Below are positions 16,141 to 36,263 of a stretch of 64,000 bases of DNA, in pieces. The DNA lies in contig DXAU01000019.1 in NCBI GenBank assembly GCA_019116885.1, positions 62,001 to 126,000 of the forward strand, written 5' to 3'. The position numbers and the translations under genes are program-made. How positions within the stretch are numbered: the first letter of the stretch is position 1; each line of letters starts with the position of its first letter. The notes under the pieces are model-generated. The model was not told the DNA's origin. It did not search any database and saw only the letters and a list, made by a program, of their open reading frames with translations. The DNA comes from Candidatus Mediterraneibacter pullistercoris (lineage in GTDB: Bacteria; Bacillota; Clostridia; Lachnospirales; Lachnospiraceae).

Positions 16141-16144
16141 GAAT

Positions 16145-19551: not shown

Positions 19552-19580
19552 TTGCCGGTTCAGAGATAAGACGATAACAG

Positions 19581-19618
19581 AAGACTGCAGGAACATGCAT
19601 CTGCTCCTGCAGTCTTTT
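19581..19618 (+). terminator. Terminator after the MCP gene
   Basis: AAGACTGCAGGA (19581-19592) pairs perfectly with TCCTGCAGTCTT (19605-19616), followed by TT. It lies only 20 bp before the glycosyltransferase start, so that gene must be read from a promoter not obvious here or by read-through. Confidence 0.8.
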
Positions 19619-19637
19619 GGCGTAAGGAGATGAAAGT

Positions 19638-20987
19638 ATGAAAATAAAGAGAGGCGTAAAGCTCTCTCAGTGCATGATTGTGAAAAATGAAGAGAAAAAC
19701 ATCCGCCGCGCACTGGAGTGGGCAAAAGGGCTTGCATATGAACAGATCGTAGTAGACACTGGCTCCACAGACCGGACCGTGGCGATTGCCGAGGAAATGG
19801 GGGCGAAAGTGTATCATTTCCAGTGGATCGGCGACTTTGCCGCAGCCAAGAACTATGCCATCGAACAGGCATCCGGGGACTGGATTGCGTTTCTGGATGC
19901 AGATGAATATTTTACGAAAGAGGACACGGAGAAGCTCGGCCGACTGCTGGAGCGCCTGCAGAAGCACCTGAATGATCCAAGGGCGCCCCTGTTTATCCGA
20001 TGTGCCTTGGTGAATCTGGGCAACGATGGAAAACCTTTCATGGTGGCTGTACAGGACAGGATATTCCGGAATACTCCGCGTATCCGCTATCAGGGAAAGA
20101 TCCACGAGCAGATCGTACTGGATGGCGGCAAAGGGAAATGGCGGTTCCTGGACGAGCAGAAGTCTCTCTCCATCTTCCACACGGGATACACCAGCCAGGC
20201 CTATGCGGATACCGGAAAATCGAGGCGTAACCTGGAACTGCTGGAGAAAGAGATAGAAGAACATCCGGACAACTATAATAATTACGCCTATCTGGGGGAC
20301 AGTTATTTTATAGCAGGTGAAGAGGAGAAAGGGGAACAGGCTTACCTGAAAGCACTGTCCGGAAAGGTGCCGGAGCAGATCAAAAAGGTTAATCAGGTGC
20401 GGACGGCGAATACACTTCTCCGTTACTATACCAGATGTCCGGAACGGACTACAAGAGAAGAGATCCTGCGGATCGCCAAGTGCGGCGGATATCCGGATGA
20501 GGAGAATCCGGATCTCTACTACTTCCTTGCTTTGTGCATGTATGTCAGACGGGACTATGACAGGGCGTACCAGGAGATGCAGGAGGCGTTCCGAAGAATG
20601 GATAGTTTCAAAAGAGGCGATCCGGTATATATGCTCGGCGTACTGGACAAAGCGCTGATGCAGATGGCAAATACGTGCCGGAAGCTGGGGCTGATGCAGG
20701 AGACAGTGCGCTACAGCACGCTGGCTCTGAAGATGAATCCGCGCCTGGACAGCACGCTGGCGCGTCTCCTGGAGATTCTTAAGGATGAACGCGGAGAAGT
20801 GGAACATGCCGGCGGCACATGGGATTTTCTTGGAAAGCTGTACGATCTGAACAGTGTGTCCGATCTTATATTTATCTATAAATGCGCGAAAGCAGTTGAT
20901 TTCCCGGCGCTGGAAAACCGGCTTCTGGAAGCCATGCCGCAGGAGATGCGCGAAGAGGTGCTAAGAGCGACGGCGCCGTCAGACTAA
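19638..20987 (+). CDS. GT-A (family 2) glycosyltransferase with TPR-like region
   Basis: The N-terminal 230 residues are a family 2 glycosyltransferase: LSQCMIVKNEEKNIRRALEW, IVVDTGSTDRT, and the metal/sugar-nucleotide DxD in FLDADEYF (D87, D89). The rest (about 240-449) is helical and TPR-like (NYAYLGDSYFIAGEEEKGEQ), an architecture common in Clostridia GT2 proteins that modify flagellin or surface glycans. It lies between the MCP and a second FliD-like gene, so flagellin glycosylation is a reasonable but unproven role. No membrane segment is seen, so it should be cytoplasmic. A strong two-way terminator follows. Confidence 0.85.
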   Translation: MKIKRGVKLSQCMIVKNEEKNIRRALEWAKGLAYEQIVVDTGSTDRTVAIAEEMGAKVYHFQWIGDFAAAKNYAIEQASGDWIAFLDADEYFTKEDTEKLGRLLERLQKHLNDPRAPLFIRCALVNLGNDGKPFMVAVQDRIFRNTPRIRYQGKIHEQIVLDGGKGKWRFLDEQKSLSIFHTGYTSQAYADTGKSRRNLELLEKEIEEHPDNYNNYAYLGDSYFIAGEEEKGEQAYLKALSGKVPEQIKKVNQVRTANTLLRYYTRCPERTTREEILRIAKCGGYPDEENPDLYYFLALCMYVRRDYDRAYQEMQEAFRRMDSFKRGDPVYMLGVLDKALMQMANTCRKLGLMQETVRYSTLALKMNPRLDSTLARLLEILKDERGEVEHAGGTWDFLGKLYDLNSVSDLIFIYKCAKAVDFPALENRLLEAMPQEMREEVLRATAPSD

Positions 20988-21030
20988 CGAAGACAGAAGC
21001 AGCAGAGCTGCTGAGAAAAGAGATAATACA

Positions 21031-21084
21031 AAACAGGACCGGAAGTATTCTGCTCATATGCAGAAGACTTCCGGTCCTGTTTTT
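21031..21084. terminator. Bidirectional terminator between converging genes
   Basis: AAACAGGACCGGAAGT (21031-21046) pairs with ACTTCCGGTCCTGTTT (from 21067), flanked by A and T runs on both sides. It can end transcription of the glycosyltransferase on the plus strand and the FliD-like gene on the minus strand. Confidence 0.85.
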
Positions 21085-21100
21085 AACTCTGTTCAAAGGG

Positions 21101-22381
21101 TTAGATCAGATAATTCATCATGAGCCCTGCTGCGTAATAGTTACTCTGCAGATAGGCATTGCCGCCCATGAACATATTTGTGCCATAGTACGGCGCGTAG
21201 GATGAGAGCTGGTCTGACAGGTCGCCGTTGACAAGGGAGGCAGAATTCATGTTCATGCCGCCGAGTGCCTTGTTAAAAGCGGTGTCAGCAATGCCGCCCG
21301 TGCCGGAGATAAGATCTCTGACAAAAGCGGGATCCTTTTCCAGGCTTTCTCCAAGTACCTCTGGATCAAAGTTGAGCGTAGCGTCGTCGTTGACTGTGAT
21401 GCCAAGTACTTCAAGTGACTGTTCAGAGCCGAGTCCTCTGACAAGATTCCGGAGCTGACGGTCAACGCCTGTTCCTCTTCCATAATTGTCATTCAGGATC
21501 TCGAGCATATTATTGTAGTTTTTGACCAGATCGCTGAGCGCTGCCGCCGCTTTCTCAGGGTCGATATCCGACCGGATAGTGGTCTCTCCGGTTCCGGTCA
21601 AAGTAACACCTATCCTGCCTGCATTTACTGTGATGTCGTTCGTCGATGAAGTGTAGTCCCGCTGTACTCCGTTTTCTGTCACGGAATACTGAGCATTGGC
21701 CGCCGCTGTCTGTACAGCATCAGCGCCGCTGGCGCTTCCGAGATCACCGCTGACGGTAAATCCATAAGAAGTACCGGTCCTTGAGCTCTCGAGCTTCAGT
21801 GAGACGTCGCCGTTCTCCTCCACTATGGAAGCCGTTACGCCGATGCCGCTGTCATTGATCTGAGCAGCAGCGTCGCGAAGCATCTGAGCGTTTGTCCTGG
21901 CGCTGCCGTTTTCATTGAGAGCGCTGACCTGAATATCTACAGTTCCTCTGCTTCCGGTGATCGTGAAATCCATATCGGCTGATGCGGTGTCATACGCGCC
22001 TACAGCGTCGCTGACATTTGTCTGAGCCTGGGCGATCTGAGATACTTCAAGCTGGATCTCTCCGGTGGTGCGTACCGGCAGCCGTTCTGTGACGTCAGCC
22101 ACAGCGGTGTCAGAACTTGTGACTGCAAGATCCTGCATCACACCGGATGAATTCGTGCTCTTAAGCTCTGTTGCGGCCTGCATCAGAGAAGACATTCCTG
22201 ACGAATACTCTTTGACAAATGCCATGCTGTCCTTGATAGAATTGTTTACCGGCGAAACCGGAGTTACGGCCTCCTGGTATCTCGGATTGGAAGACAGCGC
22301 CTGTATCAGGCGTACATTGTTGGCTGCCGCCATGTAACTGTAGTAACCTGAGCCATAGGAATTAATTCCATTGATCCACAT
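21101..22381 (-). CDS. Second FliD-like (filament-cap family) protein
   Basis: The 426-residue protein has a FliD-like plan. The middle has VADVTERLPVRTTGEIQLEV and SQIAQAQTNVSDAVGAYDTA, like the FliD core. The C-terminal half has LVKNYNNMLEILNDNYGRGT, VLGITVNDDATLNFDPEVLG and SLEKDPAFVRDLISGTGGIA, as in FliD D1. The N-terminus (GSGYYSYMAAANNVRLIQAL) and C-terminus (Gly/Asn/Tyr-rich) differ from normal FliD ends, so it may not form the usual cap. It is shorter than the fliD product (796 residues). The ATG follows AAAGGAGGGACATAT. A sigma-D-like -10 lies about 90 bp upstream. Its role is unknown. Confidence 0.7.
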   Translation of the reverse strand: MWINGINSYGSGYYSYMAAANNVRLIQALSSNPRYQEAVTPVSPVNNSIKDSMAFVKEYSSGMSSLMQAATELKSTNSSGVMQDLAVTSSDTAVADVTERLPVRTTGEIQLEVSQIAQAQTNVSDAVGAYDTASADMDFTITGSRGTVDIQVSALNENGSARTNAQMLRDAAAQINDSGIGVTASIVEENGDVSLKLESSRTGTSYGFTVSGDLGSASGADAVQTAAANAQYSVTENGVQRDYTSSTNDITVNAGRIGVTLTGTGETTIRSDIDPEKAAAALSDLVKNYNNMLEILNDNYGRGTGVDRQLRNLVRGLGSEQSLEVLGITVNDDATLNFDPEVLGESLEKDPAFVRDLISGTGGIADTAFNKALGGMNMNSASLVNGDLSDQLSSYAPYYGTNMFMGGNAYLQSNYYAAGLMMNYLI

Positions 22382-22469
22382 ATATGTCCCTCCTTTCTTT
22401 TGGTATTACTGCACCTGACAATGACCAGACAGATGCAGCAGACAGAATATCATCTGTTCTTATTAAAAT

Positions 22470-22495
22470 ATATCGACAAAAGGCGGACAAACATA
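22470..22495 (-). promoter_or_regulatory. Possible sigma-D promoter for the FliD-like gene
   Basis: On the minus strand, TCGATAT (22470-22476) matches the sigma-D -10 well. The -35 at 15 bases (TATG, 22492-22495) is only a partial match to TAAA. It lies 89 bp before the gene start. Moderate support from the -10 and gene type only. Confidence 0.45.
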
Positions 22496-22542
22496 ACAGA
22501 GACGGGGTCCGGCAAATGAAAACAGGCAGATAAACCATGACA

Positions 22543-22677
22543 GACGAAAACCCGCCAGCCTTCCGGCTGACGGGCTTTCGTTGTTTTATTAGTTATCTAA
22601 AGGAATGAGAGTAAAGTGCGGTACCTTCTGGTACCATAACTTTATGAGGGGGAAAGATAGTTGTTTATCAACTATCT
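22543..22677 (-). ncRNA. Candidate small RNA, copy A (about 135 nt)
   Basis: Read on the minus strand this is a promoter, a 5' hairpin (GATAGTTG with CAACTATC, 22656-22676), an unpaired CCCCCTCAT segment, a middle hairpin (outer TAAAGT with ACTTTA, inner GGTACC with GGTACC), an unpaired CATTCCTTTAGATAACT segment, and a 16-bp terminator stem (22545-22580). The stem has two G-U pairs on the minus strand which would be A-C mismatches on the plus strand, so the minus strand is the structured one. A second copy at 27930-28071 keeps the same order with base-pair changes on both sides. I do not recognise a named RNA family. C-rich unpaired parts could bind ribosome sites (inference). Confidence 0.65.
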
Positions 22678-22678
22678 G

Positions 22679-22706
22679 ATTATAGTATAAGAGCAAATTG
22701 TGACAA
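22679..22706 (-). promoter_or_regulatory. Promoter of candidate small RNA, copy A
   Basis: On the minus strand TTGTCA (22701-22706), 16 bases, TATAAT (22679-22684). It would start transcription at the 5' hairpin (about 22673). The match to the vegetative consensus is strong. The cysteine desulfidase gene ends 110 bp upstream. Confidence 0.7.
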
Positions 22707-22815
22707 AAGTATGAGTGAACCATAAAAGAAGAAGGAAAATTATAAACTAAAACTAAAAAATGTATTAAGAGAGCTGTAGTTTAAGAGTTTTTGCAACCTA
22801 CACTGCGGAAAAATC

Positions 22816-24108
22816 TCACACAGAGTCCTCACCGACCATCAGGCGGATGATCTTATCGTTTGTCTCTTTCATGCCGTCTTTACCGAGCTGCCCGATCCCC
22901 CGTATCGTGCTCTCGATATCTTTCATGACGATTCCGTCTCCGCTTTTAAATTCCTGACCGTTTTTATACATATTGCAGCCAAGTATTCCCGCTTCCACAG
23001 AAAAGGCGATCTTAGCGGCGCAGGAAGCTTTAGCTCCGTCGCACACAATGCCTGATGTGATGGCAAGGGCGTTGACAACAGTGTGGATGACATCCTGGTA
23101 ATCACCGCCGCACAGATAGGCAATGCCAGCTCCGGCTCCAGCCCCTGCGCTTACTGCTCCGCAGTAAGCGGAGAGCGTACCAAGTCCTGTCTTCTCATGG
23201 ATGGCGACGAGATTGGAGAGCGCAAGCGCGCGGTAGAGCGTGTCTTTGTCAGTGTGAAGCTCCCGGGCATATTCGATCAGCGGCACAGAGCATGTGATGC
23301 CCTGATTGCCGCTCCCGGAGTTGATGATGACAGGGAGTTCGCATCCGTTCATGCGCGCATCGGAATCTGCGGCAGCTTTGGCTTTTGCTCTCACGGCGAT
23401 ATTATTTTCACAGGAGCTTAAGAGCACTGTGCCGATATTGGCGCCGTAGTCGCCGCGCAGACCTTCATCAGCGATCGCTGAATTATATTCGATCTGCCGG
23501 TCGAGGATATCTGCAATGTCCTGTGTATCAACGGAACAGATGAACTCCCAGATGTCTTCCATGTTCAGAAGACTACGGTCGGTGCGAGGGACTTTCTCTG
23601 CAGTATCGCCAGACAGCTCTTTCTGGAACAAAGTCCTGCCGTCTTTTTCGACGAGTACAATATTCGTATGGTAGTCAGCGATGCGGACTTTTGCATAAGA
23701 ATCTTCTTTATATTCGGTAATGACGATGTCAAATACATGCCCGCAGTCAATGTGTTCGACGTCGATCCGGACACTTTTGAGAAATGCACTGATCTCTGCG
23801 ATTTTCTGATCAGATACCTGGGAGATGACTTCCAGTTCTTTCTCAGGATCTCCGGCAATGATCCCTGCTGCGGCAGCGGCGGGCATGCCTTTGAGGCGGC
23901 CTGTGTTCGGAACGATTACACTCTTTACGTTCTTTATGATACTGCCGCTCACCTGCAGGAGTACACGGTCCGGCAGGGCGCCAAGCGCCGCTCGTGCTTT
24001 TGCTGCGGCATATGCCAGCGCTATGGGTTCCGTACAGCCGAAAGCAGGGACAAGCTCCTCTCTTAAAATCTCAGTATATGTCCGATAACGGATGTCATCT
24101 TTTTTCAT
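22816..24108 (-). CDS. cyuA: L-cysteine desulfidase (CyuA/UPF0597 family)
   Basis: The family breaks L-cysteine to pyruvate, ammonia and sulfide with an Fe-S cluster; it is related to the alpha chain of serine dehydratase. The 430-residue protein starts REELVPAFGCTEPIALAYAA, with C25 in the conserved FGCTEP motif. Further likely Fe-S cysteines occur in TAYCGAVSAG-like (LSAYCGAVSAG) and VCDGAKASCAAKI segments. INSGSGNQGITCSVP is also conserved. The ATG is preceded by AAGGAG. The gene is monocistronic, with its own promoter containing a palindrome, and is flanked on both sides by the candidate small-RNA units. Serine specificity cannot be excluded. Confidence 0.88.
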   Translation of the reverse strand: MKKDDIRYRTYTEILREELVPAFGCTEPIALAYAAAKARAALGALPDRVLLQVSGSIIKNVKSVIVPNTGRLKGMPAAAAAGIIAGDPEKELEVISQVSDQKIAEISAFLKSVRIDVEHIDCGHVFDIVITEYKEDSYAKVRIADYHTNIVLVEKDGRTLFQKELSGDTAEKVPRTDRSLLNMEDIWEFICSVDTQDIADILDRQIEYNSAIADEGLRGDYGANIGTVLLSSCENNIAVRAKAKAAADSDARMNGCELPVIINSGSGNQGITCSVPLIEYARELHTDKDTLYRALALSNLVAIHEKTGLGTLSAYCGAVSAGAGAGAGIAYLCGGDYQDVIHTVVNALAITSGIVCDGAKASCAAKIAFSVEAGILGCNMYKNGQEFKSGDGIVMKDIESTIRGIGQLGKDGMKETNDKIIRLMVGEDSV

Positions 24109-24177
24109 TGTATCTTTACTCCTTCAAAGCGTTTTATCTGATCGGAACTGATTCTCTCAGGTACAGATGCTAAGAAG

Positions 24178-24205
24178 ATTATAGCATGTACATGCTGTTT
24201 CAGAA
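24178..24205 (-). promoter_or_regulatory. cyuA promoter with internal 14-bp palindrome
   Basis: On the minus strand a -10 TATAAT (24178-24183) lies 16 bases from TTCTGA (24200-24205). The spacer holds the perfect palindrome AGCATGTACATGCT (24183-24196), placed as an operator would be between -35 and -10. The regulator is not known. Confidence 0.6.
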
Positions 24206-24254
24206 AGGTATATATGCTGCTGTTTTCACTGTTGCTCCTGCGCTTCTTCCATAG

Positions 24255-24323
24255 ACGGCGAAAACCCGCTAACCTTACGGCTAACGGGTTTCGTGTTGTT
24301 ATAGTTATCTAAAGGAATGAGAG
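24255..24323. repeat. 69-bp direct repeat, left copy (element end)
   Basis: Identical to 27929-27997 over 69 bp, including the terminator stem of the candidate small RNA and the segment TTATCTAAAGGAATGAGAG. The sequence diverges right after it. This looks like the attachment-site duplication left by an integrative element. It duplicates the 3' half of the small-RNA gene. Confidence 0.85.
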
Positions 24324-24456
24324 ACTATACTGTTTGATTATATTGTATTACAAGTTGTTATAAAGCATGTAAATACGGGGTTTCTCCAATCTGGTGCTTT
24401 TATAAATTGTTATAGTTGATTATGAAAAGGTGCCCCAAAGGTGTCCCGGCAAGGTT

Positions 24457-25089
24457 TCATTTCTTCCTGAATGAGTTTACCGCATTTACAACTGATGCTG
24501 CCGCAGTTGCTGTTGACGCTGTTGCGGTATCCTGCTGTAAACGTCTGATTTCTTCCTGAATCGCCATTTGATCCTGTTGGAATTGATGTGTTTCTAATAA
24601 GTTGTATGCTTCTTTCAGGCTGTCAGCGCGTCCCTCATTGATAAAATTCCATAGATGGTAAATGTCATAATAATTATAAAATTTTGCCGGAAAATCTTTT
24701 GCTCCGTTTTGATAGTCAGGATTATTCTTTGCCTGTTCCAATGCGCTAAGTGCTTCTGCGAGTTTATGGTCTGCGGGTTTTACATAGCGGTTCTGTTTCA
24801 TGTAGAGTACAATAGCGAGGAGTGCGCCAAAGAGGAGTGAACCACCAAGTCCTCCAATTTGTGGTGAGCCATTATGGTCAAGATAAAATAAATTTGTATC
24901 ATGCCCAATGAGCAACGCAACAAACCAAAATGCAAAACAAACTCCCAATACAATGATTCCTGCTTTCCATTTTTTTGTAGTCTTTTCATAATTCTGTTCA
25001 GCTTTATTGACGTTGCTCTCTGCTACTGCAACAGGAGCAGTTATCCTTTTCTTTTCTGCTAAATAGTTTAAAATTTCTTGCTTATTCAT
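24457..25089 (-). CDS. Hypothetical protein with two membrane segments
   Basis: I do not recognise the family. The 210-residue protein has a lysine-rich helical N-terminus (NKQEILNYLAEKKRITAPVA), two membrane segments (about residues 45-62, WKAGIIVLGVCFAFWFVALL; and about 82-97, GGSLLFGALLAIVLYM), a long helical C-terminal part with a coiled-coil-like stretch (QFQQDQMAIQEEIRRLQQDT) and an Ala/Thr-rich end. The ATG follows a GGAG-like site (AGGAGATAGGGT). It is the first gene inside the element, with an AT-rich upstream region, and lies on the strand opposite the recombinase. Function unknown. Confidence 0.65.
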   Translation of the reverse strand: MNKQEILNYLAEKKRITAPVAVAESNVNKAEQNYEKTTKKWKAGIIVLGVCFAFWFVALLIGHDTNLFYLDHNGSPQIGGLGGSLLFGALLAIVLYMKQNRYVKPADHKLAEALSALEQAKNNPDYQNGAKDFPAKFYNYYDIYHLWNFINEGRADSLKEAYNLLETHQFQQDQMAIQEEIRRLQQDTATASTATAAASVVNAVNSFRKK

Positions 25090-25189
25090 ACCCTATCTCC
25101 TATGTGTTTTGAATATTTTTATCTTGGTGTAAGGTTTAAAGTGTTAATCGCCGTTACCATCTCCTTTCAAAATTCCGAGATATAGGTTC

Positions 25190-25411
25190 TTATATTTTAT
25201 CATCCTCTCCCGGACGTTCCTCAATCCCATAATCCTCTCCCGGATATGTCCCCACGATGTCACAGGTTCCGTCCAGTATCTTCCATACCAAATGGGCCTG
25301 TTCTGCCTCCGTCAGGTCGTCTGACTGGGTACAGAAACGGAGCAGGTCAATGCTTTCTGTCCCATATTTCCTCCTTAGGGAGGAGAGGGATTCCCTGTCC
25401 TCCCGAATCAT
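25190..25411 (-). CDS. Small acidic hypothetical protein
   Basis: A 73-residue reading frame begins 3 bp after the stop of the lipoprotein gene, with only a weak ribosome site (AGGA), so it could be translated by coupling. It is acidic (LTEAEQAHLVWKILDGTCDI, then GEDYGIEERPGEDDKI). No motif or family is recognised. It may be a real small gene of the element or the remnant of a longer one. Confidence is low. Confidence 0.4.
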   Translation of the reverse strand: MIREDRESLSSLRRKYGTESIDLLRFCTQSDDLTEAEQAHLVWKILDGTCDIVGTYPGEDYGIEERPGEDDKI

Positions 25412-25414
25412 GTC

Positions 25415-26824
25415 CTATGCAGGCTTCTTAGCGCCGCAGGAACAATAGTAATAATCGGTATAGGTCTCATTCCAGCCCTGGTCTTCTGAATGTGTATGAG
25501 AACAAGCGACATCCTGATAGTTATAATAACCATCCTCCGCTCTCAGATGTTCTATTGCATGTTCGTCAAAGCCGACAGCATCACCAAACACAGCACCACA
25601 GCTACAAATGGTATCATAGGAATGGTCTGACCACGTTACCCAATTCTCGTGCCAGCGTGTTGCAGTATGGGGCGTCCAGCTACAAACATGGGGCGGTGTC
25701 GTAGAACCTCCGCCACCGGATGACCCGCCAGAGCCGCCGGAAGAACCAGAACCACCACCGGATGAACCAGAGCCACCGGATGAACCGCCAGAGCCACCGG
25801 AGCTACCACCGGATGAACCACCACTGGATGAGCCAGAGCCGCCGGAAGAACCAGAACCGCCGGATGAAGAACCAGTATCTTCCGTCTTCCCGCCATCCGT
25901 CTCTTTGTCTTCATCCGTCTTTCTGTCATCGTTCTCTTTCTCATCGTCCTCCGGGTTCTCTTCCGGTTTCACGTTGTCTTTGATCACGCCATCCCCAAGG
26001 CTCTCTTCCTCGTCTTTGTCCACGACTTCTACATCGGTCGGGATATCCACGGAACCCACGTCAGAACCGTCCGTTTTGTCATCGGAGGTGCCTGTCCCGT
26101 TATTCGGCGTCTCCACTTTGACAGGCTCTTTGAAGGTCACTTCATAGGTCACCTCATAATGCCCCGGTTTTCCGAAGTCCACGTTGTCCTCTTTGACGGT
26201 CACAGACTTGATGTTGCTGTCCTCTCCGGCTTCCTGCTGGATGTTGGACGCATAGACGTCGAAATCATACTCTTTCAAGTCCTGAGACAGTTTCAGGTTC
26301 TTTGTCAGGTCAGCCACCTCAGATACGGCTTCCGGCACGACCGTCACTGCCACAACGGCTTCGGCTGTGCCTTTCGTGCCCTTGCTGTTTTCCAAGTCAA
26401 AGGTGATCGCCAGGTCTTTGGCTTTGTCCGTCACTTCCGAGAACGTGAGGGAGACGTTGGGCACGTTCTTCCCGCTCATGAGTGTTGCCGCGCCCTCTGT
26501 CTTTGCTACGGTAAACGTGTCACCTTTTCCTGGTTCCGGCAGTTCCCCGTCCGTTCCAAATGCGACCGTCTTCCCGCCGTAGTCAAGGGTCACGGTCTTC
26601 ACGGAGTACCCGGTGTCCGGCTCTACCTCTGAGAGGAAGTCAGACATCGGTGCCGCTTTGTTCTGAATCACAGTCACATTCTTTTCCGCTGTGAGATCGG
26701 CTTTCGTTTCGACTGTTTCAATTGCGTCAGATGCAGTTGGTGTCTCTTTTCCTCCGCATCCTGCGATCAGGGACGCTGCCAGTGCGGCAGTTAGTACAAG
26801 GGATACAAGTTTTCTCTTTTTCAT
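25415..26824 (-). CDS. Surface lipoprotein with Ser/Gly-rich linker and Cys-rich end
   Basis: A lipoprotein signal peptide (MKKRKLVSLVLTAALAASLI followed by the lipobox Cys in IAGC) anchors the protein outside the cell. Residues about 40-240 form two or three repeated beta domains (VTVIQNKAAPMSDF, DLKEYDFDVYASNIQQEAGE), likely Ig-like. A charged Asp/Glu-rich stretch follows, then about 60 residues of nearly pure Gly and Ser, and a C-terminal Cys/His region with two CSCGA motifs, also seen in other Lachnospiraceae surface proteins. I choose ATG at 26824, which has TAGGAG before it; the open frame starts 11 codons earlier. Probably the cargo of the element; the ligand is unknown. Confidence 0.75.
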   Translation of the reverse strand: MKKRKLVSLVLTAALAASLIAGCGGKETPTASDAIETVETKADLTAEKNVTVIQNKAAPMSDFLSEVEPDTGYSVKTVTLDYGGKTVAFGTDGELPEPGKGDTFTVAKTEGAATLMSGKNVPNVSLTFSEVTDKAKDLAITFDLENSKGTKGTAEAVVAVTVVPEAVSEVADLTKNLKLSQDLKEYDFDVYASNIQQEAGEDSNIKSVTVKEDNVDFGKPGHYEVTYEVTFKEPVKVETPNNGTGTSDDKTDGSDVGSVDIPTDVEVVDKDEEESLGDGVIKDNVKPEENPEDDEKENDDRKTDEDKETDGGKTEDTGSSSGGSGSSGGSGSSSGGSSGGSSGGSGGSSGGSGSSGGGSGSSGGSGGSSGGGGSTTPPHVCSWTPHTATRWHENWVTWSDHSYDTICSCGAVFGDAVGFDEHAIEHLRAEDGYYNYQDVACSHTHSEDQGWNETYTDYYYCSCGAKKPA

Positions 26825-26937
26825 AAATTCATCACTCCTAGCTTTAGTGAATTCCAATAAATACAGTATATTCTACATATCGAAGATATTCAAGTATTAG
26901 AATATATTTTATGGTTATTCCTAGGGAGGAATGGCAT

Positions 26938-27159
26938 ATGATTGATTATTCTCCGTTCTGGAAAACGTTAGAAAATTCAAATGAAAATTGGTATACATTG
27001 AATCGTAAATATAATATTTCTCACAGTACGCTGTCGCGTTTGAAGCATAATAAAGATATATCAATGAGAACTGTTAATGATTTATGTAGAATCTTGAAGT
27101 GCAATATCCAGGATATAGCAGTATATGTGCCATCTGACGAAGATCAACTTTTATATTAG
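26938..27159 (+). CDS. Small XRE-type HTH regulator
   Basis: This 73-residue protein is a single XRE/Cro-type helix-turn-helix: TLNRKYNISHSTLSRLKHNK followed by ISMRTVNDLCRILKCNIQDI, which is the usual pattern of small Cro-like regulators in mobile elements. I choose the ATG at 26938, 8 bp after GGGAGG; the in-frame ATG at 26911 lies upstream of that site. It is divergent from the lipoprotein gene, with an 85-bp AT-rich shared region, so it may control it (inference). Confidence 0.8.
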   Translation: MIDYSPFWKTLENSNENWYTLNRKYNISHSTLSRLKHNKDISMRTVNDLCRILKCNIQDIAVYVPSDEDQLLY

Positions 27160-27500
27160 CGACCGTGGGAAATGATTTGAAGTAGTATACAAAGAAATCA
27201 GACCAACTAGAAGAATGAGTGTTAGCGGAGCGCGGTCATTCTGGCGGGCGGTAGGCTGTACGGCTGAGTTTTCTGGTAGGATTCGAGATAATTTTTAAAA
27301 CAAATAAGCAAAAAAGAGGGCGGGAAACCGCTCTCTTTTACATTCTTTAATCATTCTATATTCAATTTCTAAAAAAATTTAAACTCGTCCCTTGGAGTTT
27401 TTGCATACTCAAAAACTTTTCCCTCGGGGGCAAGCCCCCCGAATCCCCATTCTTTCATGAAAAGATAATCATTTCTTTCAACTTTTATCCTCTTTCCATA
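27160..27500. other. Non-coding stretch between regulator and recombinase remnant
   Basis: No convincing gene is seen. The stretch holds a terminator hairpin (27312-27340) and a very GC-rich hairpin near 27423-27441 (CGGGGG-CAAG-CCCCCCG) in AT-rich surroundings. The 5' end of the recombinase gene would lie here, but no homologous coding sequence is visible, so it has been lost or replaced. Confidence 0.6.
27312..27340 (+). terminator. Terminator inside the element
   Basis: AAAGAGGGCGG pairs with CCGCTCTCTTT around a GAAA loop, followed by T4 within the stem and a short tail. It probably ends transcription from the XRE gene. Confidence 0.6.
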
Positions 27501-27832
27501 ATGTATTATTTCGTAAATGGAAAACCAGTTTCACAGCGTTCGTTTCAGTCGGCTGTTGATTGGATTGTAAAGGCAATCAATAAAGACCGAAAAGAGCAGG
27601 CTGAAAAAGACGGAACAGATTTTATATCAATAGAGCATATCTATCCTCACGCTCTCAGACATACATTTGCGACAAGATGTTTTGAAGCGGAGACCGCTCC
27701 AAAGACAGTCCAGAAGTATCTTGGTCATTCTTCTGTCGCGATCACGCTAGACATTTACACTCATGTCACACGAACGATAAGGCAAAAACGGAAATGAATA
27801 AACTGGAAGAACTCTATAAAAAGATCATATAG
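27501..27832 (+). pseudogene. Tyrosine recombinase (phage integrase) remnant, C-terminal part
   Basis: The surviving part keeps the catalytic C-terminal motifs: HALRHTFATR (His-x2-Arg), LGHSS and the Tyr nucleophile in LDIYTHV. Catalytic Arg I and the whole N-terminal and core-binding parts are missing. After ...YTHVT the frame runs out early (RTIRQKRK, stop at 27797), whereas a shifted frame continues as NDKAKTEMNKLEELYKKII to a stop at 27832, the normal integrase ending. So it is both truncated and frameshifted. It lies about 100 bp from the right repeat, as usual for an element's integrase. Confidence 0.85.
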
Positions 27833-27928
27833 CAACTCTATAAATAACTATCTATTACCGAAATATTCCAGAAGATAACAAAAGGGTGCCCGAAAGGTGC
27901 CCCAAATGTTCAAAGCGGAGATTCGTGA

Positions 27929-27997
27929 ACGGCGAAAACCCGCTAACCTTACGGCTAACGGGTTTCGTGTTGTTATAGTTATCTAAAGGAATGAGAG
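27929..27997. repeat. 69-bp direct repeat, right copy (complete small-RNA gene)
   Basis: Identical to 24255-24323. Here the flanking sequence continues into the complete structured unit, so this copy marks the original chromosomal side of the insertion. Confidence 0.85.
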
Positions 27998-28071
27998 TAA
28001 AGTACGACATCCCGGTCCCCCGGGATGTCTTTACTTTATGAGGGGGGAGATAGTTGTTTTATCAACTATCT
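27930..28071 (-). ncRNA. Candidate small RNA, copy C (about 140 nt)
   Basis: It has the same order as copy A on the minus strand: 5' hairpin (GATAGTTG/CAACTATC, 28049-28070), unpaired CCCCCCTCAT, middle hairpin (outer TAAAGTA with TACTTTA, inner GACATCCCGG with CCGGGATGTC, 28006-28029), unpaired CATTCCTTTAGATAACT, and a terminator stem at 27933-27967 whose two plus-strand A-C mismatches are G-U on the minus strand. The middle stem has a quite different sequence from copy A but still pairs perfectly. Its terminator half was the insertion target of the element. No ORF is seen inside it. Confidence 0.65.
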
Positions 28072-28073
28072 GT

Positions 28074-28102
28074 CTCATAGTATAGACAGAAAATGTGTCC
28101 AA
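28074..28102 (-). promoter_or_regulatory. Promoter of candidate small RNA, copy C
   Basis: On the minus strand TTGGAC (28097-28102), 17 bases, TATGAG (28074-28079); a TATACT also overlaps just upstream. It is placed so that transcription starts at the 5' hairpin, as in copy A. Confidence 0.55.
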
Positions 28103-28169
28103 AGTATGTTTAAACTCTTAAAGAAAAAGAAAAATACTTATGAAAATCTTAACCCTCAGTTTCCCGTAA

Positions 28170-29222
28170 TTAGAAAATGCTGTTTAACATAGAGTTCATC
28201 ATTGATTCAAGCGAAGTATTCACGATGATATATACGATAAGGAAAGAGATAATGCTCATGCACAGCTTTGCGACAAAATATGCATAGGGCTTTTTGTCTT
28301 CCGCCATCCTTACACAGCCCTGATAAGATGCAAACTGTATATATACACTGATGGGGAGTAAAAGAGCAAGTACAACGAAAGCGATCTGCCACGATAACAT
28401 TCCCAGAATGACAAAAATCAAAAGAAGGAAAGTGTCATAGATGGCACGGGCGCCGATTACATTAATCATAGTATTTGTATTTGTGATACCGTTAAATGCG
28501 CCTGTAATCACTTTAAGTATTAAGGCTTCAAGGAAGTCGATGCCAAGTGTCAGGATAAGTGTCACCAGTATGAGCTGGAAATATGGCATATTGGCCTCGA
28601 TCAGACCATAACTCATGCTGTGTACCTGATTTGACAGCATAAGAAGCGCGATGATCACGACGATCAGGAACACGACTGTTTTAGCTGCGATGAGCTGAAT
28701 CCCTACGTTGGCGCTTCCTGATGATGAAATCTGTCTGACTCTGCTGACGGGCGCTTTTAAGATAGGGCCGATTTCGGAAAACATGCTTTTTGTTCCGGAT
28801 ACGATCGCATTCTTCTGACGGTTGATCCACTCGGCTTCTTTTGTATAGCCGCCTGGCTGGCCGTCCTGCTGATACTGCTGGTTATACTGCTGCCTGTTTT
28901 GCTGAGTCTGCTGATACTGCTGGTTATACTGCTGACTGTTCTGCTGAGCCTGCTGGTACTGCTGGCTGTTCTGCTGATACTGCTGGCTGCTCTGCTGAGT
29001 CTGCTGGTACTGCTGGCCGCTCTGCTGAGCCTGCTGGTACTGTTGGCTGTACTGCTGATTGTACTGCTGCTCATTCTGCGGGGTGTCCGCCGTCTGCTGA
29101 GGACCGGCCGTCTGTGTGCTGCTTACATTTACATTAGAGGCAGCGTCCGCATTTTGAGAAGTACAGGTGCAGACTTCGCCATCCTCCAGTTTTCTTCCAC
29201 ATTGTGTACAGTATTTTGACAT
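28170..29222 (-). CDS. Zinc-ribbon, Gln/Tyr-rich multi-pass membrane protein
   Basis: The N-terminus is a zinc-ribbon (MSKYCTQCGRKL...VCTCTS). Then comes a long Gln-rich repeat region (about residues 45-125) made of QQYQQAQQ and QYNQQYQQTQQ units. The C-terminal half (about 175-350) has four to five membrane segments (VVFLIVVIIALLMLSNQV, LILVTLILTLGIDFLEALIL, LLIFVILGMLSWQIAFVVLA, ISFLIVYIIV). No known catalytic domain is seen. The DNA is a tandem CTGCTG-type repeat and could vary in length by slippage. It is one of three zinc-ribbon or LysM genes grouped here. Function unknown; envelope-related from its neighbours. Confidence 0.75.
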   Translation of the reverse strand: MSKYCTQCGRKLEDGEVCTCTSQNADAASNVNVSSTQTAGPQQTADTPQNEQQYNQQYSQQYQQAQQSGQQYQQTQQSSQQYQQNSQQYQQAQQNSQQYNQQYQQTQQNRQQYNQQYQQDGQPGGYTKEAEWINRQKNAIVSGTKSMFSEIGPILKAPVSRVRQISSSGSANVGIQLIAAKTVVFLIVVIIALLMLSNQVHSMSYGLIEANMPYFQLILVTLILTLGIDFLEALILKVITGAFNGITNTNTMINVIGARAIYDTFLLLIFVILGMLSWQIAFVVLALLLPISVYIQFASYQGCVRMAEDKKPYAYFVAKLCMSIISFLIVYIIVNTSLESMMNSMLNSIF

Positions 29223-29330: not shown

Positions 29331-29618
29331 TTATCGAATTTGGAGCAGATACTCGGGAACTTTTATTGTATTTCCGGCATAGATGCGGCAGGAGGCTGAG
29401 ATGCTGTTCAGCCGGCACAGAGCGGTTACAGTCGTGCCGCAGCGCTGTGCGATCCCGCTCAGTGTGTCTCCGGGCTGGATGACATAAGTGATATACTGCG
29501 TGTGCTGCCGGATGCCGCAGTCTGTTCCGTCATAAGTGTCTGTGTACCCTGCCGCTTTGACCTTTTCCCAGCCGGCTTCTCTCTGAAATTCTCTGCCGTC
29601 CAATCCCTTTATGCTCAT
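29331..29618 (-). CDS. Small LysM-domain protein
   Basis: The C-terminal half is a LysM domain (ITYVIQPGDTLSGIAQRCGT, then RIYAGNTIKVPEYL), which binds peptidoglycan N-acetylglucosamine sugars. The N-terminal part (MSIKGLDGREFQREAGWEKV) has no signal peptide, so how or whether it is exported is unclear. I choose the ATG at 29618, behind AAGGGG; a longer frame reaches 29729 without a good ribosome site. Length is 95 residues. Many Clostridia have such small LysM proteins related to spore or wall assembly. It is divergent from the next zinc-ribbon gene. Confidence 0.75.
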   Translation of the reverse strand: MSIKGLDGREFQREAGWEKVKAAGYTDTYDGTDCGIRQHTQYITYVIQPGDTLSGIAQRCGTTVTALCRLNSISASCRIYAGNTIKVPEYLLQIR

Positions 29619-29807
29619 AGGCGTACCCCTTCTTTCATGAGCCGGCAGTAAGCCGGCAGTACAGCCGGACTCAACGCTTTCATACAGTATATGCTGAGGA
29701 TCAGAGATGGTGCGGAAAGTATATTGCAAAAAATGCCGGAAATAATTATAATTACAGTGACAAGACTGCGATAAGGCAGTCTGCTCTGAAGGAATGGAGG
29801 TTTACAT

Positions 29808-31166: not shown

Positions 31167-31212
31167 GCAGATTACCTGGATCATTTATGGATATAGAAAG
31201 AGGGCGGATATA

Positions 31213-31785
31213 ATGAACAAAAATACAACGAATAACGCAATCTGGATGTGTGCGGGCGGTCTGCTGGGTCTGCTCATCGTTATGGCGCTCGCCGGGATGG
31301 TTCTCCTTTTTCTGTGGCCGTCTGGAAACGCCGGAAAGAGTTCTGCTGTCCGGGCATCCGAAGGCGAACTGAAAGCAGCGGCGCCTCTGGAAGCAGAGAC
31401 TCAGATAAAATCTGAGATACAGATTGCCGGTTCCGGAACAGTGTCTTCGCAGGAAGATACGGGAGAAGAGGAAAAACTGACGTCAGATTATATTATACCG
31501 GACAGTGACTCGAAACTGCTGACAGACGCTGATATTGAAGGGCTGTCGGCAAGGGAACTCAACTATGCGAAGAATGAGATCTATGCAAGACATGGGCGTA
31601 TGTTCGACTCGGCGGAACTGAAGGAATATTTTGAAAGCAAATCCTGGTATAGCGGGGTGTATTCTGCGTCGGAATTTGACGAGATGAGCAGTTCTATCCT
31701 GAATGAGACGGAGAAGAAGAATGCGGAGTTCCTCAAAGAAGCAGAAAATGAACTGGAGCCGGGCGGATATAAGCTCGATCAGTAA
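31213..31785 (+). CDS. Membrane-anchored YARHG-domain protein
   Basis: The 190-residue protein has an N-terminal membrane segment (about 10-35, GGLLGLLIVMALAGMVLLFL) and a C-terminal YARHG domain (LNYAKNEIYARHGRMFDSAE, LKEYFESKSWYSG), an extracellular domain found in clostridial surface proteins. The linker is Glu-rich. I choose the ATG at 31213 with GAGGGCGG before it; an upstream frame overlaps the preceding gene. It is 18 bp before the amidase gene and 46 bp after the zinc-ribbon gene, so all three likely form an operon. The domain's ligand is not known. Confidence 0.8.
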   Translation: MNKNTTNNAIWMCAGGLLGLLIVMALAGMVLLFLWPSGNAGKSSAVRASEGELKAAAPLEAETQIKSEIQIAGSGTVSSQEDTGEEEKLTSDYIIPDSDSKLLTDADIEGLSARELNYAKNEIYARHGRMFDSAELKEYFESKSWYSGVYSASEFDEMSSSILNETEKKNAEFLKEAENELEPGGYKLDQ

Positions 31786-31803
31786 GTAAGAGGGGGTAAA
31801 ATC

Positions 31804-32795: not shown

Positions 32796-32819
32796 TATGG
32801 AGAATCATTCGGTTTTATT

Positions 32820-32880
32820 TTAAGGAAATCGTAAGATTTTTGTTTCTCCCTCTTAAAAAATAGTTTTTATCATGTATACT
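32820..32880 (+). promoter_or_regulatory. Promoter of the two-component operon with direct repeats
   Basis: The -10 TATACT (32875-32880) lies 17 bases from a weak -35 (CTTAAA, 32852-32857). Upstream, TAAGGAAATCG and TAAGATTTTTG begin 11 bp apart (from 32821 and 32832). TAAG repeats at 11-bp spacing are typical OmpR-family binding sites, so the operon may regulate itself (inference). Confidence 0.5.
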
Positions 32881-32957
32881 ATAGATGACACGAACGGCCT
32901 GTCGGACAAGGATCACACAGGCCATAAGGGTTCAGAGAGATAAAGGGGTGAGTGAAA

Positions 32958-33656
32958 ATGTATAATATACTTGTATGTGATGATGACAAAGAGATCGTAG
33001 AAGCCATTGAAATATATCTTTCCCAGGAGGGGTACCATATCCTGAAAGCGTACGACGGAGTCGAGGCTCTCGGCATCCTGGAAAAGGAAGAAGTCAACCT
33101 GCTTATAATCGACGTGATGATGCCAAAACTCGATGGGATAAGAGCGACTTTAAAGATACGGGAGAAGAACAGTATTCCGATCATCATTCTGTCGGCAAAG
33201 TCTGAGGATGCGGATAAAATATTGGGTCTGAACGTAGGGGCAGACGACTATGTAACAAAGCCGTTCAGCCCGCTGGAGCTGGTGGCAAGGGTGAAATCTC
33301 AGCTGCGAAGATATAACCAGCTTGGGGGTTCAGAGCAGGGAGAGCAGGAGAAGATCTATGAGGCCGGGGGTCTGGCAATCAATGATGACCTGAAAGAAGT
33401 AACAGTAGACGGCGAACCGGTGAAACTTACGCCGATTGAGTATAATATCCTTCTGCTCCTGATGAAGAACCAGGGCCGTGTATTCTCTATCAGCCAGATA
33501 TACGAATCGATCTGGAATGAAGAGGCCATCGGGGCAGACAATACCGTGGCTGTGCATATCCGCCACATAAGGGAGAAGATCGAGATCAATCCAAAGGATC
33601 CCAGATATCTGAAAGTGGTGTGGGGAGTCGGATATAAGATCGAGAAAGGAATGTAG
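32958..33656 (+). CDS. OmpR-family response regulator
   Basis: The receiver (residues 1-115) has the acidic pair in VCDDDKE, the phospho-acceptor Asp in LLIIDVMMPKLDG and the Lys in VTKPFSPLEL. The C-terminal winged helix (about 135-230) has VKLTPIEYNILLLLMKNQGR and VHIRHIREKIEI, as in OmpR/PhoB. The 232-residue length is typical. I choose the ATG at 32958, 9 bp after AAAGGGG; a GTG two codons earlier is too close. The partner kinase starts 9 bp after the stop. Targets may include the neighbouring envelope genes (inference from position). Confidence 0.93.
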   Translation: MYNILVCDDDKEIVEAIEIYLSQEGYHILKAYDGVEALGILEKEEVNLLIIDVMMPKLDGIRATLKIREKNSIPIIILSAKSEDADKILGLNVGADDYVTKPFSPLELVARVKSQLRRYNQLGGSEQGEQEKIYEAGGLAINDDLKEVTVDGEPVKLTPIEYNILLLLMKNQGRVFSISQIYESIWNEEAIGADNTVAVHIRHIREKIEINPKDPRYLKVVWGVGYKIEKGM

Positions 33657-33665
33657 AAGGATATT

Positions 33666-36263
33666 ATGAGACAATGGTACAGAAAGACTCTGACGAAAGT
33701 CATCGTTCTGCTTGCGGGGATACTGAGCGGAGCGGCATTTGTCACTTCACTTGCTGTAGCAGTGACATTTGCAGGGACGGTCAATCCGTCACAGATCCGG
33801 AATCTGGTAAATGAGCCATACGAGGAATCTTCAGATTTTAATGCTGCGGTAGAGGGATCTGTGTCTGAGGTGTTTGAAATGCTGCGGTTCCGGGATATGT
33901 TCGAGACGGACGGATCATACAACCCGGACAAAGAAATCGACATCATGGAATACGCAGAGTCCGGCAGGATCAGCGGGAAGAACACATCAGGGATAGCCTA
34001 TACGCTGGAAGATCTGATAAAGTGGGGTGAAAAGTTTAATGCTGAAGGACAGGAAGTGTACAATGAAAATATCATAGTATGCCAGCGGGAGGACGGAACC
34101 TACTACTATTACTATCTTGAGGACTTCATTACCCGTGTTGAAAACGGAGAGCTTACGATCGAATTTGAAGATGAATACCAGACCCAGGCTGCGTTTCTGA
34201 AAGAGCTGGCTGACGGGGATACGACCGGGCTGGACAACGGATATGGATTGAGGATTTATGATTCTGAAGGAAGGGTGCAGTATACCGACTGCTGGAACTT
34301 TGGCGCGGCTCTGCGTGAAGACTATACACCTGTGGGGGCTGCAAATATTCTTCAGGCTGTAAACAGTAATCCAGAATTAAACGGGGAACTGTCAGATATT
34401 TATGATAATCTTACATTTGTGTTGTCAGAGATCTACACCAATTATCTGACTTATGAATCCGGATGGGAATATCTGGAAGAAGGAAACACGAATTTTACTT
34501 ATCTCTACGCTGACAGGACGACCAAACAGGTTTTTACAAACAGATCAGAATACGAGGCGTATAAAGACCTGGAAGATCATATCGATGAGATGAAATCAGG
34601 AGACTCTGTAAAGTATGTGATCGTTTATCCAAAGCTGAAAGATTTTGAGACTAATATGAGTATTTCTGCATCCGGAGAATGGGATGCAGTAAGATCCTAC
34701 GAGCCGAGCAGGGATTCTGAGAATATCCTTGCCGTGTCGGTCGATACTTCCTATCCGATACAGGATCAGTTTTATGAGGGGAATGAGAATTACAATGAGA
34801 ATATTCCATTTCTGAGATGGGCTCTGTTCCTGTTCTTTGCAGGCGGAACACTTTTCCTTGTATCCGCTGTATGGCTGGCGGTGACAGCCGGAAAAAATCC
34901 GGAGGACGAGGAACTGCACCTGACGGCGTTTGACCGCTGGAAGACGGAGATTTCAGCAGCCCTGGTTATCGGGCTGTGGGTGCTGGGTACATGTATCCTT
35001 GTTGCAGGGGTTACGACATTTGACATTGACAGCTGGGCGTCGGTACCTGCAGCAGTGGAATACTATGGCGCTGATACGATATCAGCGACCTATTCCACAT
35101 TATTTGCTGCGGCGATAAACATGGCTGATCTGACGGGCATATTTTTCTACGGGCTGTTCAGTTTCCTGTGTTTCTTCGCAGGATATGTGAGCCTGGTGCG
35201 GCGGATCAAGGCGAAGATTCTCTGGAAAGGCAGTCTGTTCTACGCGCTGATTTCTGTAGCAGGACAGGTGTGGAGAGAACGATCTGTTACATTGAAAGCC
35301 GCTTTGGCTGTAGCGGGATTCCTGTTTGTGCAGTGGCTGGCGATTCTGTTTCGGACGTTCCCGTTCCTGCTGCTGGCCTTTGCTGCTGATATCGCGGTCA
35401 TCTGGGCCGTACTCAGCGGAGCGGTCGCAAAGAACAGGATCAGAAAAGGGATTGAAGAGATCGCGGCCGGAAATCTGGAATACCGCATTGAGATAAAGTG
35501 GCTGCATGGGGCTGAACGGGATATCGCAGAAAAGATCAACAATATCGGAAGCGGCCTGAATAAGGCTGTGGATGAAGCAATGAGAAATGAGCGTCTGAAG
35601 ACGGATCTTATCACAAATGTATCACATGATATCAAGACGCCGCTGACTTCGATTATTAATTATGTGGACATTCTGAAGCGTTCGGATATAGCAGATGAAA
35701 AAATACGGAATTATCTGGATATTCTTGAAGCGAAGGCGCAGCGGCTGAAGACACTGACGGAAGATGTGGTAGAGGCGTCCAAGGTGAGCAGCGGAAATAT
35801 TACTCTGGAGTGTATGGATATGGATCTGCGGGAGCTGGTGCAGCAGACGGAAGGAGAGATGGCGGAGAAATTTGCCGCGCGGAGGCTGACGATGGTGCTC
35901 AATATCCCGGAAGAACCGGCAGTCATCCATGTGGATGGAAGAAGGATGTGGCGCGTCCTTGAAAATATTTTCGGGAACGCTGCCAAGTACGCGATGCCAG
36001 GAACAAGAGTCTACGCGGATCTTATCTTAAAAGACGATAAAGTAGAATTTTCTCTGAAGAATGTATCAGAACAGCAGCTCAATATCTCAGCGGATGAACT
36101 TACGGAACGTTTCATACGGGGAGATATCTCAAGGAGCACGGAAGGAAGCGGGCTTGGGCTGTCTATTGCAAAGAGCCTCACAGTGATGCAGGGCGGCGAG
36201 TTTGAACTCTATCTGGACGGGGATCTTTTCCGGGTCAATATCTGCTTTGCGAGAGTGAGATAA
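33666..36263 (+). CDS. Large sensor histidine kinase with multi-pass membrane core
   Basis: This 865-residue kinase has a first membrane segment (about 10-30), an extracellular domain of about 340 residues, then five to six membrane segments between about 375 and 585 (LFLFFAGGTLFLVSAVWLAV, ALVIGLWVLGTCILVAGV, FYGLFSFLCFFAGYVSLV), a HAMP-like linker, a dimerisation domain with the phospho-His in TNVSHDIKTPLTSI, and the ATPase domain with GSGLGLSIAKSL. The membrane core is larger than in ordinary kinases. A direct sensor of wall or membrane state is plausible. It is co-transcribed with the response regulator. Confidence 0.9.
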   Translation: MRQWYRKTLTKVIVLLAGILSGAAFVTSLAVAVTFAGTVNPSQIRNLVNEPYEESSDFNAAVEGSVSEVFEMLRFRDMFETDGSYNPDKEIDIMEYAESGRISGKNTSGIAYTLEDLIKWGEKFNAEGQEVYNENIIVCQREDGTYYYYYLEDFITRVENGELTIEFEDEYQTQAAFLKELADGDTTGLDNGYGLRIYDSEGRVQYTDCWNFGAALREDYTPVGAANILQAVNSNPELNGELSDIYDNLTFVLSEIYTNYLTYESGWEYLEEGNTNFTYLYADRTTKQVFTNRSEYEAYKDLEDHIDEMKSGDSVKYVIVYPKLKDFETNMSISASGEWDAVRSYEPSRDSENILAVSVDTSYPIQDQFYEGNENYNENIPFLRWALFLFFAGGTLFLVSAVWLAVTAGKNPEDEELHLTAFDRWKTEISAALVIGLWVLGTCILVAGVTTFDIDSWASVPAAVEYYGADTISATYSTLFAAAINMADLTGIFFYGLFSFLCFFAGYVSLVRRIKAKILWKGSLFYALISVAGQVWRERSVTLKAALAVAGFLFVQWLAILFRTFPFLLLAFAADIAVIWAVLSGAVAKNRIRKGIEEIAAGNLEYRIEIKWLHGAERDIAEKINNIGSGLNKAVDEAMRNERLKTDLITNVSHDIKTPLTSIINYVDILKRSDIADEKIRNYLDILEAKAQRLKTLTEDVVEASKVSSGNITLECMDMDLRELVQQTEGEMAEKFAARRLTMVLNIPEEPAVIHVDGRRMWRVLENIFGNAAKYAMPGTRVYADLILKDDKVEFSLKNVSEQQLNISADELTERFIRGDISRSTEGSGLGLSIAKSLTVMQGGEFELYLDGDLFRVNICFARVR

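Follow-up and report, generated by a model that had tools for sequence, protein, structure and literature searches.

The window is a stretch of 64,000 nucleotides of contig DXAU01000019.1 (assembly GCA_019116885.1) from Candidatus Mediterraneibacter pullistercoris, a member of the Lachnospiraceae, read on the forward strand from contig position 62,001 to 126,000. It carries two related units that a sequence-only reading had described as paralogous genes of a minus-strand regulatory RNA. Both were confirmed on that strand, unit 1 at approximately 22678-22545 and unit 2 at approximately 28072-27933. Comparison across genomes shows them to belong to a structured, conserved and often multicopy small RNA (sRNA) family, encoded on the minus strand in the window. 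We lean towards reading the units as paralogues of a trans-acting sRNA of the Lachnospiraceae that would be controlled by a two-component regulator and pair with ribosome-binding sites, the three parts being taken jointly. The transcript ends of unit 1 were inferred from the -10 element and the terminator. The parts of the two units are given below, with the basis for each in brackets.

22545..22678, minus strand: sRNA unit 1, short-stem paralogue, about 134 nt predicted (5' end near 22678, terminator end at 22545)
22656..22678, minus strand: unit 1 5' hairpin, CAGATAGTTGATAAACAACTATC (folding, helix 1 covariation)
22644..22652, minus strand: unit 1 unpaired C-rich segment, CCCCCTCAT (conservation)
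22620..22637, minus strand: unit 1 variable middle hairpin (AAAG/CTTT, the closing helix, falls outside these coordinates)
22591..22612, minus strand: unit 1 unpaired segment, ACTCTCATTCCTTTAGATAACT (in other copies, the region of integrase crossover)
22545..22580, minus strand: unit 1 terminator hairpin (folding, helix 4 covariation)
22721..22760, minus strand: unit 1 conserved upstream regulatory region, -43 to -82 (promoter alignment)
27933..28072, minus strand: sRNA unit 2, long-stem paralogue, about 140 nt predicted (folding, model match)
28049..28072, minus strand: unit 2 5' hairpin (folding, covariation)
28038..28046, minus strand: unit 2 C-rich unpaired segment (conservation)
28006..28029, minus strand: unit 2 middle hairpin, GACATCCCGG...CCGGGATGTC (folding, covariation)
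27977..27998, minus strand: unit 2 unpaired segment, ACTCTCATTCCTTTAGATAACT (conservation, attachment core)
27933..27967, minus strand: unit 2 terminator hairpin (folding, covariation)
28115..28154, minus strand: unit 2 conserved upstream regulatory region, -43 to -82 (promoter alignment)

Folding z-scores (200 dinucleotide shuffles each) were -9.9 for unit 1 and -7.8 for unit 2 on the minus strand, and -5.5 and -4.5 on the plus strand. The strand had originally been argued from G-U pairs that would read as A-C mismatches on the opposite strand; this logic holds over 150 aligned copies (239 G-U vs 68 A-C cells), a count that leans to the minus strand because the alignment was fitted to a minus-strand model. 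Pairing of the middle stems and terminators was likewise borne out in each copy. The number of copies had been put too low at two: a search of the window's own genome returned three places, namely units 1 and 2 and an overlooked third at 24255-24323 that holds the 3' half alone. The promoter proposed for each unit needs correction: its conserved -10 element is TATACT (22690-22685 in unit 1), and a canonical -35 element 17 bp above it was not present.

The sequence-only reading had not recognised the RNA, and no Rfam 15 family reached its gathering threshold for either unit. A scan of the whole window with Rfam 15 returned a SAM riboswitch elsewhere in the window and nothing else; at E up to 10, the region 21500-28500 gave nine weak matches, every one below gathering, and 12 sRNA loci of other genomes gave none. 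No sRNA of this sort was found described for Lachnospiraceae in the literature searched. The main text of PMC8040213, the part of that source considered, does not name these genera, and its supplementary candidate lists may hold the motif under a number. The units represent a new RNA family of a known type.

Copies were found with unit 1 as a BLAST query in 57 of 58 Mediterraneibacter genomes (1-7 matches each) and in 0 of 41 others. A covariance model was then run against 299 family genomes, one per genus, and matched 56 at E up to 1e-5. Thirty of these reach 70 bits; the other 26 have weaker matches only, the best of them 52.2 bits, and matches below about 53 bits were treated as mostly chance. 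A weak match in genome G152 (50.7 bits, locus L367), 668 bp from the regulator gene described below, is genuine by sequence. In an order sample of 295 genomes, whose share from outside the family is unstated, six were matched, all of the same family and the window's own genome among them; in a class sample of 291 genomes, with the same limit, the own genome alone was matched. Covariance-model matches are so far confined to the Lachnospiraceae. A gapped pattern built on the two unpaired segments matched at least 116 stretches in named genomes; among the matches listed are Claveliimonas, Coprococcus comes, Drancourtella, Extibacter, Dorea, Faecalicatena, Hespellia, Ohessyouella, Schaedlerella and others, with sRNA copies in records of Coprococcus comes, [Ruminococcus] torques, [Ruminococcus] faecis and Dorea sp. 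D27.

For the structural analysis, 268 full copies were kept (195 unique) and 74 partial matches were set aside. Of the unique copies 194 could be parsed; 104 representatives were chosen, and the first 70 were aligned with MAFFT. The structure was set by hand and then checked by column slides and shuffles. In this unfitted alignment 89.3% of cells were paired and 25 of 35 pairs had changed on both sides, with 0 of 500 shuffles equal; shifting the alignment by 1-3 columns reduced pairing to 32-48%. A model search over 100 collected loci gave 160 matches, and the best 150 were aligned. Here 96.2% of cells were standard pairs, 27 of 35 pairs had changed on both sides and 0 of 500 shuffles equalled any measure, in an alignment that leans to the structure because it was fitted to the covariance model. 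RNAalifold recovered hairpin 1 alone from the sequence alignment because the stems of variable length are misaligned. The middle hairpin was assessed separately: exchanging its halves between copies gave poorer pairing than the native combination in 170 of 171 unique copies. Further paired changes occur in the model-found set; one is AAATTG/CAATTT, which replaces AAAGT/ACTTT in L357. The check for covariation in more homologues that had been proposed for the two units was in this way carried out, and pairing is kept in a far larger set.

By comparison, then, the plan shown is a 5' hairpin, a middle hairpin that varies yet pairs on an AAAGU/ACUUU base, and a terminator hairpin; the comparative data support the proposal of a minus-strand regulatory RNA family. 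The middle hairpin would act as a spacer. Among 130 copies from the genus, the middle segment measures 30-35 nt in 68 and 38-43 nt in 61, one copy being unparsed, and short-stem and long-stem paralogues occur together in 44 of 56 genomes. Unit 1 is of the short type and unit 2 of the long type.

Two unpaired pyrimidine-rich segments, CCCCUCAU and ACUCUCAUUCCUUU, are nearly invariant. Each contains CUCAU, unpaired, and the two flank the middle hairpin. Across the 70-sequence alignment CCCCTCAT and ACTCTCATTCCTTT are invariant, in part by selection, since 49 of the 70 sequences came from loci (L113-L232) fetched by a pattern that demanded parts of both. Copies found by the model without any pattern (n=43) carry the first segment exactly in 39, the second in 41 and both in 37; the four that depart from the first segment read CUCAC in its place. 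These 43 were parsed from 40 model-found regions, of which L366 gave none, and one opposite-strand chance match was excluded. Within the genus, exceptions occur in L057, which reads CCCCCTTAT near 15884, and L098, which is two bases short in the second segment. A copy at L061:16886-17041 lacks the C-rich segment and keeps the hairpins and the second segment.

A VanR-like response regulator gene and its partner kinase lie 4.9 kb from unit 2, with the following coordinates.

32952..33656, plus strand: VanR-like response regulator, proposed sRNA activator (divergent, 4.9 kb from unit 2)
33666..36263, plus strand: partner sensor histidine kinase (gene neighbourhood, family models)
32818..32856, plus strand: element resembling that upstream of the sRNAs, within the promoter region of the regulator itself (it scores 7.2, around the 99th percentile of controls)

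Outside Mediterraneibacter, a regulator 79-87% identical to that at 32952-33656 recurs upstream of the sRNA in divergent orientation, and in L141, L164, L184 and L202 it is nearest, at 164-210 bp. Among the 30 genera with strong model matches, an orthologue (79-89% identical) lies within 2.5 kb in at least 17, of which 16 are divergent and one tandem, and within 20 kb of a strong copy in at least 22. For the 26 genomes with weak matches only, a regulator match was listed for 20, and in 0 of 20 within 2.5 kb. Comparison thus shows genetic linkage of the sRNA to one VanR-like regulator and its kinase. The regulator matches NCBIfam VanR families and the kinase VanS, both below the cut-offs, so the models do not make the pair vancomycin-resistance regulators.

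Promoter alignment covered 192 unique upstream regions. The -10 element TATACT is conserved at -12 to -7, with a TTGACA-like block approximately 10 bp above it. A canonical -35 element seems to be missing, which suggests an activator. Conservation extends to -80 in blocks spaced approximately 10-11 bp apart (-80 TTAA, -69 TTTA, -60 TTTC and -49 TTTTA), and several copies from other genera read CTTAAG-N5-CTTAAG or near it. CTCAYA occurs near -36 in 49 of 68 short-type vs 7 of 61 long-type copies. A weight matrix for -82 to -43 found 582 sites of at least 8 bits within 250 bp of a copy in the collected loci. Its scores were higher at 25 regulator promoters than at 1029 open reading frame (ORF) upstream regions (Mann-Whitney p 1e-11), and also than at 221 AT-matched controls (p 4e-6). 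The regulator would bind the TTAAG-type repeats and so switch on its own operon along with the sRNA copies.

The RNA would then pair through CCCCUCAU and ACUCUCAUUCCUUU with the ribosome-binding sites of mRNAs, blocking translation. Complementarity of the C-rich segments to such sites had been pointed out from the two units. Targeting of these sites is plausible, and translation starts are favoured over coding interiors: pairing of the segments at 283 translation starts, relative to coding interiors, averaged -2.2 and -3.4 kcal/mol. In the window's genome nagB has a 10/11 match, and a second candidate, which we take to be yedE, has a 14-mer with one mismatch ahead of its start. An orthologue of the latter occurs in 5 of 41 genomes, and the three most similar of the five keep a 10-base match. 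Base pairing at ribosome-binding sites is probably the mode of action and is the weakest step of the mechanism.

A number of results count against control by this regulator and pairing at ribosome-binding sites. Among the matches listed, 8 of the 30 genera have no regulator inside 20 kb of a strong copy: in three it lies on the same contig 44-349 kb off, in three on another contig, and two (G341, G382) have no listed match. In the window itself the distance to unit 2 is 4.9 kb. A regulator match at E 1e-60 or better is present in 251 of 299 family genomes, and some regulators more than 80% identical occur in genomes without a strong sRNA match; being far commoner than the RNA, the regulator must have other work. 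Matrix sites away from copies numbered 157 at 8 bits or more, 17 at 15 or more and 5 at 20 or more, duplicates included; of the 192 known sites, by comparison, 155 score at least 20 bits. The control starts are unverified ORF starts and the upstream element is rich in A and T; four of the regulator loci have the sRNA promoter within approximately 210 bp. On the target side, permuted segments averaged -1.9 and -2.3, with 12 of 40 and 4 of 40 matching the real ones, so the pairing is not specific to the order of bases and the preference for translation starts is mostly composition. Across 30 loci nagB was rejected as a target, ATGAGG being found in just 3 of 29 readable starts. For yedE, AAAGGAATGA precedes the start in three orthologues (93-100% identity) and is absent from two (85-86%); the match may be just a conserved Shine-Dalgarno sequence, and the gene is a weak candidate.

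Strong off-copy matrix sites (20 bits or more) include L072:741, L089:3265, L040:1793 and L164:148. Such matches are possibly further members of the regulon.

Some of these results would also fit a linkage that is positional only, with another regulator controlling the sRNAs. The eight genera without a nearby regulator among the matches listed, the frequency of the regulator in genomes without the RNA and the imperfect control promoters all point that way. Set against them are the divergent arrangement in 16 of 17 close cases and the shared promoter element, and we regard control by another regulator as rather doubtful.

The best rival to base pairing is a protein-titrating sponge of the CsrB/Rsm-like kind, in which the two CUCAU segments would serve as a double dock for an RNA-binding protein. 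CUCAU is common to both segments, their conservation across genera is stricter than base-pairing seeds require, and the permutation tests showed no order-specific match to translation starts. A candidate protein is lacking, however, and four of the 43 independent copies have CUCAC in the first segment. In the streptococcal csRNAs and in LhrC of Listeria, the same two-component logic goes with action by base pairing. Sponges of the CsrB/Rsm type carry repeated GGA in hairpin loops, and no GGA was found among the conserved columns of the 70-sequence alignment, so that a CsrA sponge was rejected despite the presence of csrA at 15161-15433. Overall we consider a protein sponge unlikely, and pairing with mRNA remains the preferred mode of action.

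The third copy belongs to an integrative element, of which two parts were located.

24255..24323, minus strand: partial copy of unit 2 (3' half), forming the distal attachment site of a decayed element and repeating 27929-27997 exactly over 69 bp
27495..27829, plus strand: tyrosine integrase remnant, C-terminal part, in two frames (tblastn, Pfam Phage_integrase), tail to tail with unit 2

The decayed element spans 24255-27997 (approximately 3.7 kb) and has exact 69-bp ends within the sRNA gene. It contains a helix-turn-helix gene and the integrase remnant, together with minus-strand ORFs that match no Pfam family above the cut-off. Direct repeats of the kind looked for at a tyrosine-integrase site were thus found, 69 bp long in the window and with exact cores of 19-38 bp in five other loci, and the distal element ends of those loci resemble one another. 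Many partial copies start sharply near ACTCTCATT. A motif search, which covered copy-bearing loci only and may miss fragments and divergent integrases, found a tyrosine-integrase ORF in 14 of 81 genus loci. In 12 of these it lies approximately 98-135 bp past the 3' end of a complete sRNA gene, tail to tail; L102 has it next to a 3'-half copy, and L112 on the other side. Judged from these repeats, the 3' half of the sRNA gene is an integrase attachment site, and the 3'-half repeats at element ends indicate that the gene is the target and is restored by the element's own 3' half. In integrations at tRNA genes the element likewise brings the gene's 3' half.

Two related elements are apparently in tandem at one attachment site in L102:4070-12798. 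On a 4.6-kb faecal scaffold named 'Bacteriophage sp.' (L302, MT839987.1), an sRNA copy and an integrase (68% identical) lie tail to tail, and this arrangement is probably an element end with its host flank. In four IMG/VR contigs (L229-L232) the sRNA lies close to one end of the contig, a position that it might have in host flanks of predicted proviruses.

The attachment core, the exact 69-bp repeats in the window and an integrase some 100-135 bp past the full gene in 12 of 14 integrase loci could also be taken to mean that the units are primarily parts of mobile elements, as a repeat family or as attachment sites, and not host genes. We find this highly improbable. The integrase was recognised in just 14 of 81 genus loci (with the reservation on fragments and divergent forms given above), nearly every genome of the genus has the sRNA, whose linkage to a two-component system extends across genera, and the promoter and 5' half, absent from the distal element ends, are conserved.

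The neighbouring genes include one further listed feature.

29331..29729, minus strand: LysM-bearing remnant of a GH25-LysM gene (intact relative: Pfam Glyco_hydro_25 and LysM)

Counts of neighbours are lower bounds, as loci have unequal flanks. A GH25-LysM gene lies upstream of the sRNA in at least 42 of 81 genus loci, and upstream on the same strand near at least 75 of 130 genus copies. An alpha/beta-hydrolase gene is convergent downstream near at least 62 of the 130. Between the sRNA and the two-component system, 29808-32709 on the plus strand encodes a zinc-ribbon protein, a YARHG protein and an N-acetylmuramoyl-L-alanine amidase. An envelope-related signal is suggested by the neighbours (GH25 muramidase, amidase) and the VanR/VanS similarity alone. 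Beside unit 1, the cluster at 14715-22381 holds csrA (15161-15433, Pfam CsrA), a FliD-domain gene and an ORF that is presumably flagellin-like; no link of this cluster to the sRNA was found. The SAM riboswitch (RF00162) is at 39920-40017 on the plus strand.

With its terminator, the RNA might instead be a cis-acting leader or attenuator of a downstream gene, and in the window a FliD-domain gene does follow unit 1 on the same strand, as the regulator gene follows in tandem in G236. The downstream genes vary, however, and are often convergent: besides the alpha/beta-hydrolase genes, at least 14 of the 130 copies have an integrase on the opposite strand. Hairpin 1 showed no alternative pairing with the 3' segment in the 70-sequence alignment, where variants do not co-change; a pairing between the 5' arm and the 3' segment UAACUAU was rejected, as the 5' hairpin variants of L202, L141, L201 and L164 leave the 3' segment unchanged. 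A leader function is therefore given very little credence, and a trans-acting role is preferred.

The Lachnospiraceae are among the abundant bacteria of the gut. With a clear structure, near-invariant candidate seeds and a named candidate regulator that is often its neighbour, the sRNA makes RNA regulation in these bacteria directly testable, for instance in the four named species whose records carry copies, and the sRNA family would merit an Rfam entry. Annotators should be aware that the 3' half of this sRNA gene is a recombination site. A bolder account would make the RNA a new class that serves as output of a VanR/VanS-like two-component system in about 30 genera of the Lachnospiraceae, whose CUCAU linkers bind a protein or globally brake translation in envelope stress and whose gene is a landing site for integrative elements; as a whole this is speculative and unlikely to hold.

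The use of the gene as an attachment site has precedents. In Salmonella, sRNA genes make up 17% of prophage sites, as cited in the part of PMC5502288 consulted, and PrrF1/PrrF2 of Pseudomonas are sRNA genes used as attachment sites (PMC8373256, in the portion considered). As at those sites, an integrase-bearing element lies at a conserved sRNA gene and leaves a working copy; the RNA is different, and the element here brings the 3' half with the terminator.

We are inclined to think, for the reading as a whole, that the sRNA works like the csRNAs of streptococci and LhrC of Listeria, being activated by a two-component system and pairing with ribosome-binding sites. According to the part of PMC3091779 considered, csRNAs are several similar sRNAs per genome with CiaR-bound TTTAAG-N5-TTTAAG promoters, and their hairpins come with an unpaired stretch that has anti-Shine-Dalgarno and anti-start (CAU) sequence. 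By description, the present sRNA is likewise multicopy, with unpaired near-invariant segments and TTAAG-type promoter repeats, and the CTTAAG-N5-CTTAAG of other-genus promoters resembles the CiaR repeat (PMC3091779). It differs in having three hairpins rather than typically two, in TTAAG-type repeats at approximately -80/-69 with further T-rich blocks rather than ten bases from the -10 element, in being linked to regulator genes and in belonging to different bacteria; the csRNA arrangement proper (NTTAAG-N5-TTTAAG ten bases from -10, CiaR-dependent, in streptococci) was not found. LhrC1-5 of Listeria (LisRK regulon) are multicopy, with C-rich unpaired motifs and demonstrated Shine-Dalgarno pairing (PMC4132741, in the part consulted). 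Their family is defined by sequence homology and by UCCC motifs placed in two loops and one linker. Pairing is proposed for the present sRNA, and its motifs, CCCCUCAU and ACUCUCAUUCCUUU, are in linkers rather than loops; by description it shares with LhrC multiple copies, C-rich unpaired motifs and, as predicted here, two-component control.

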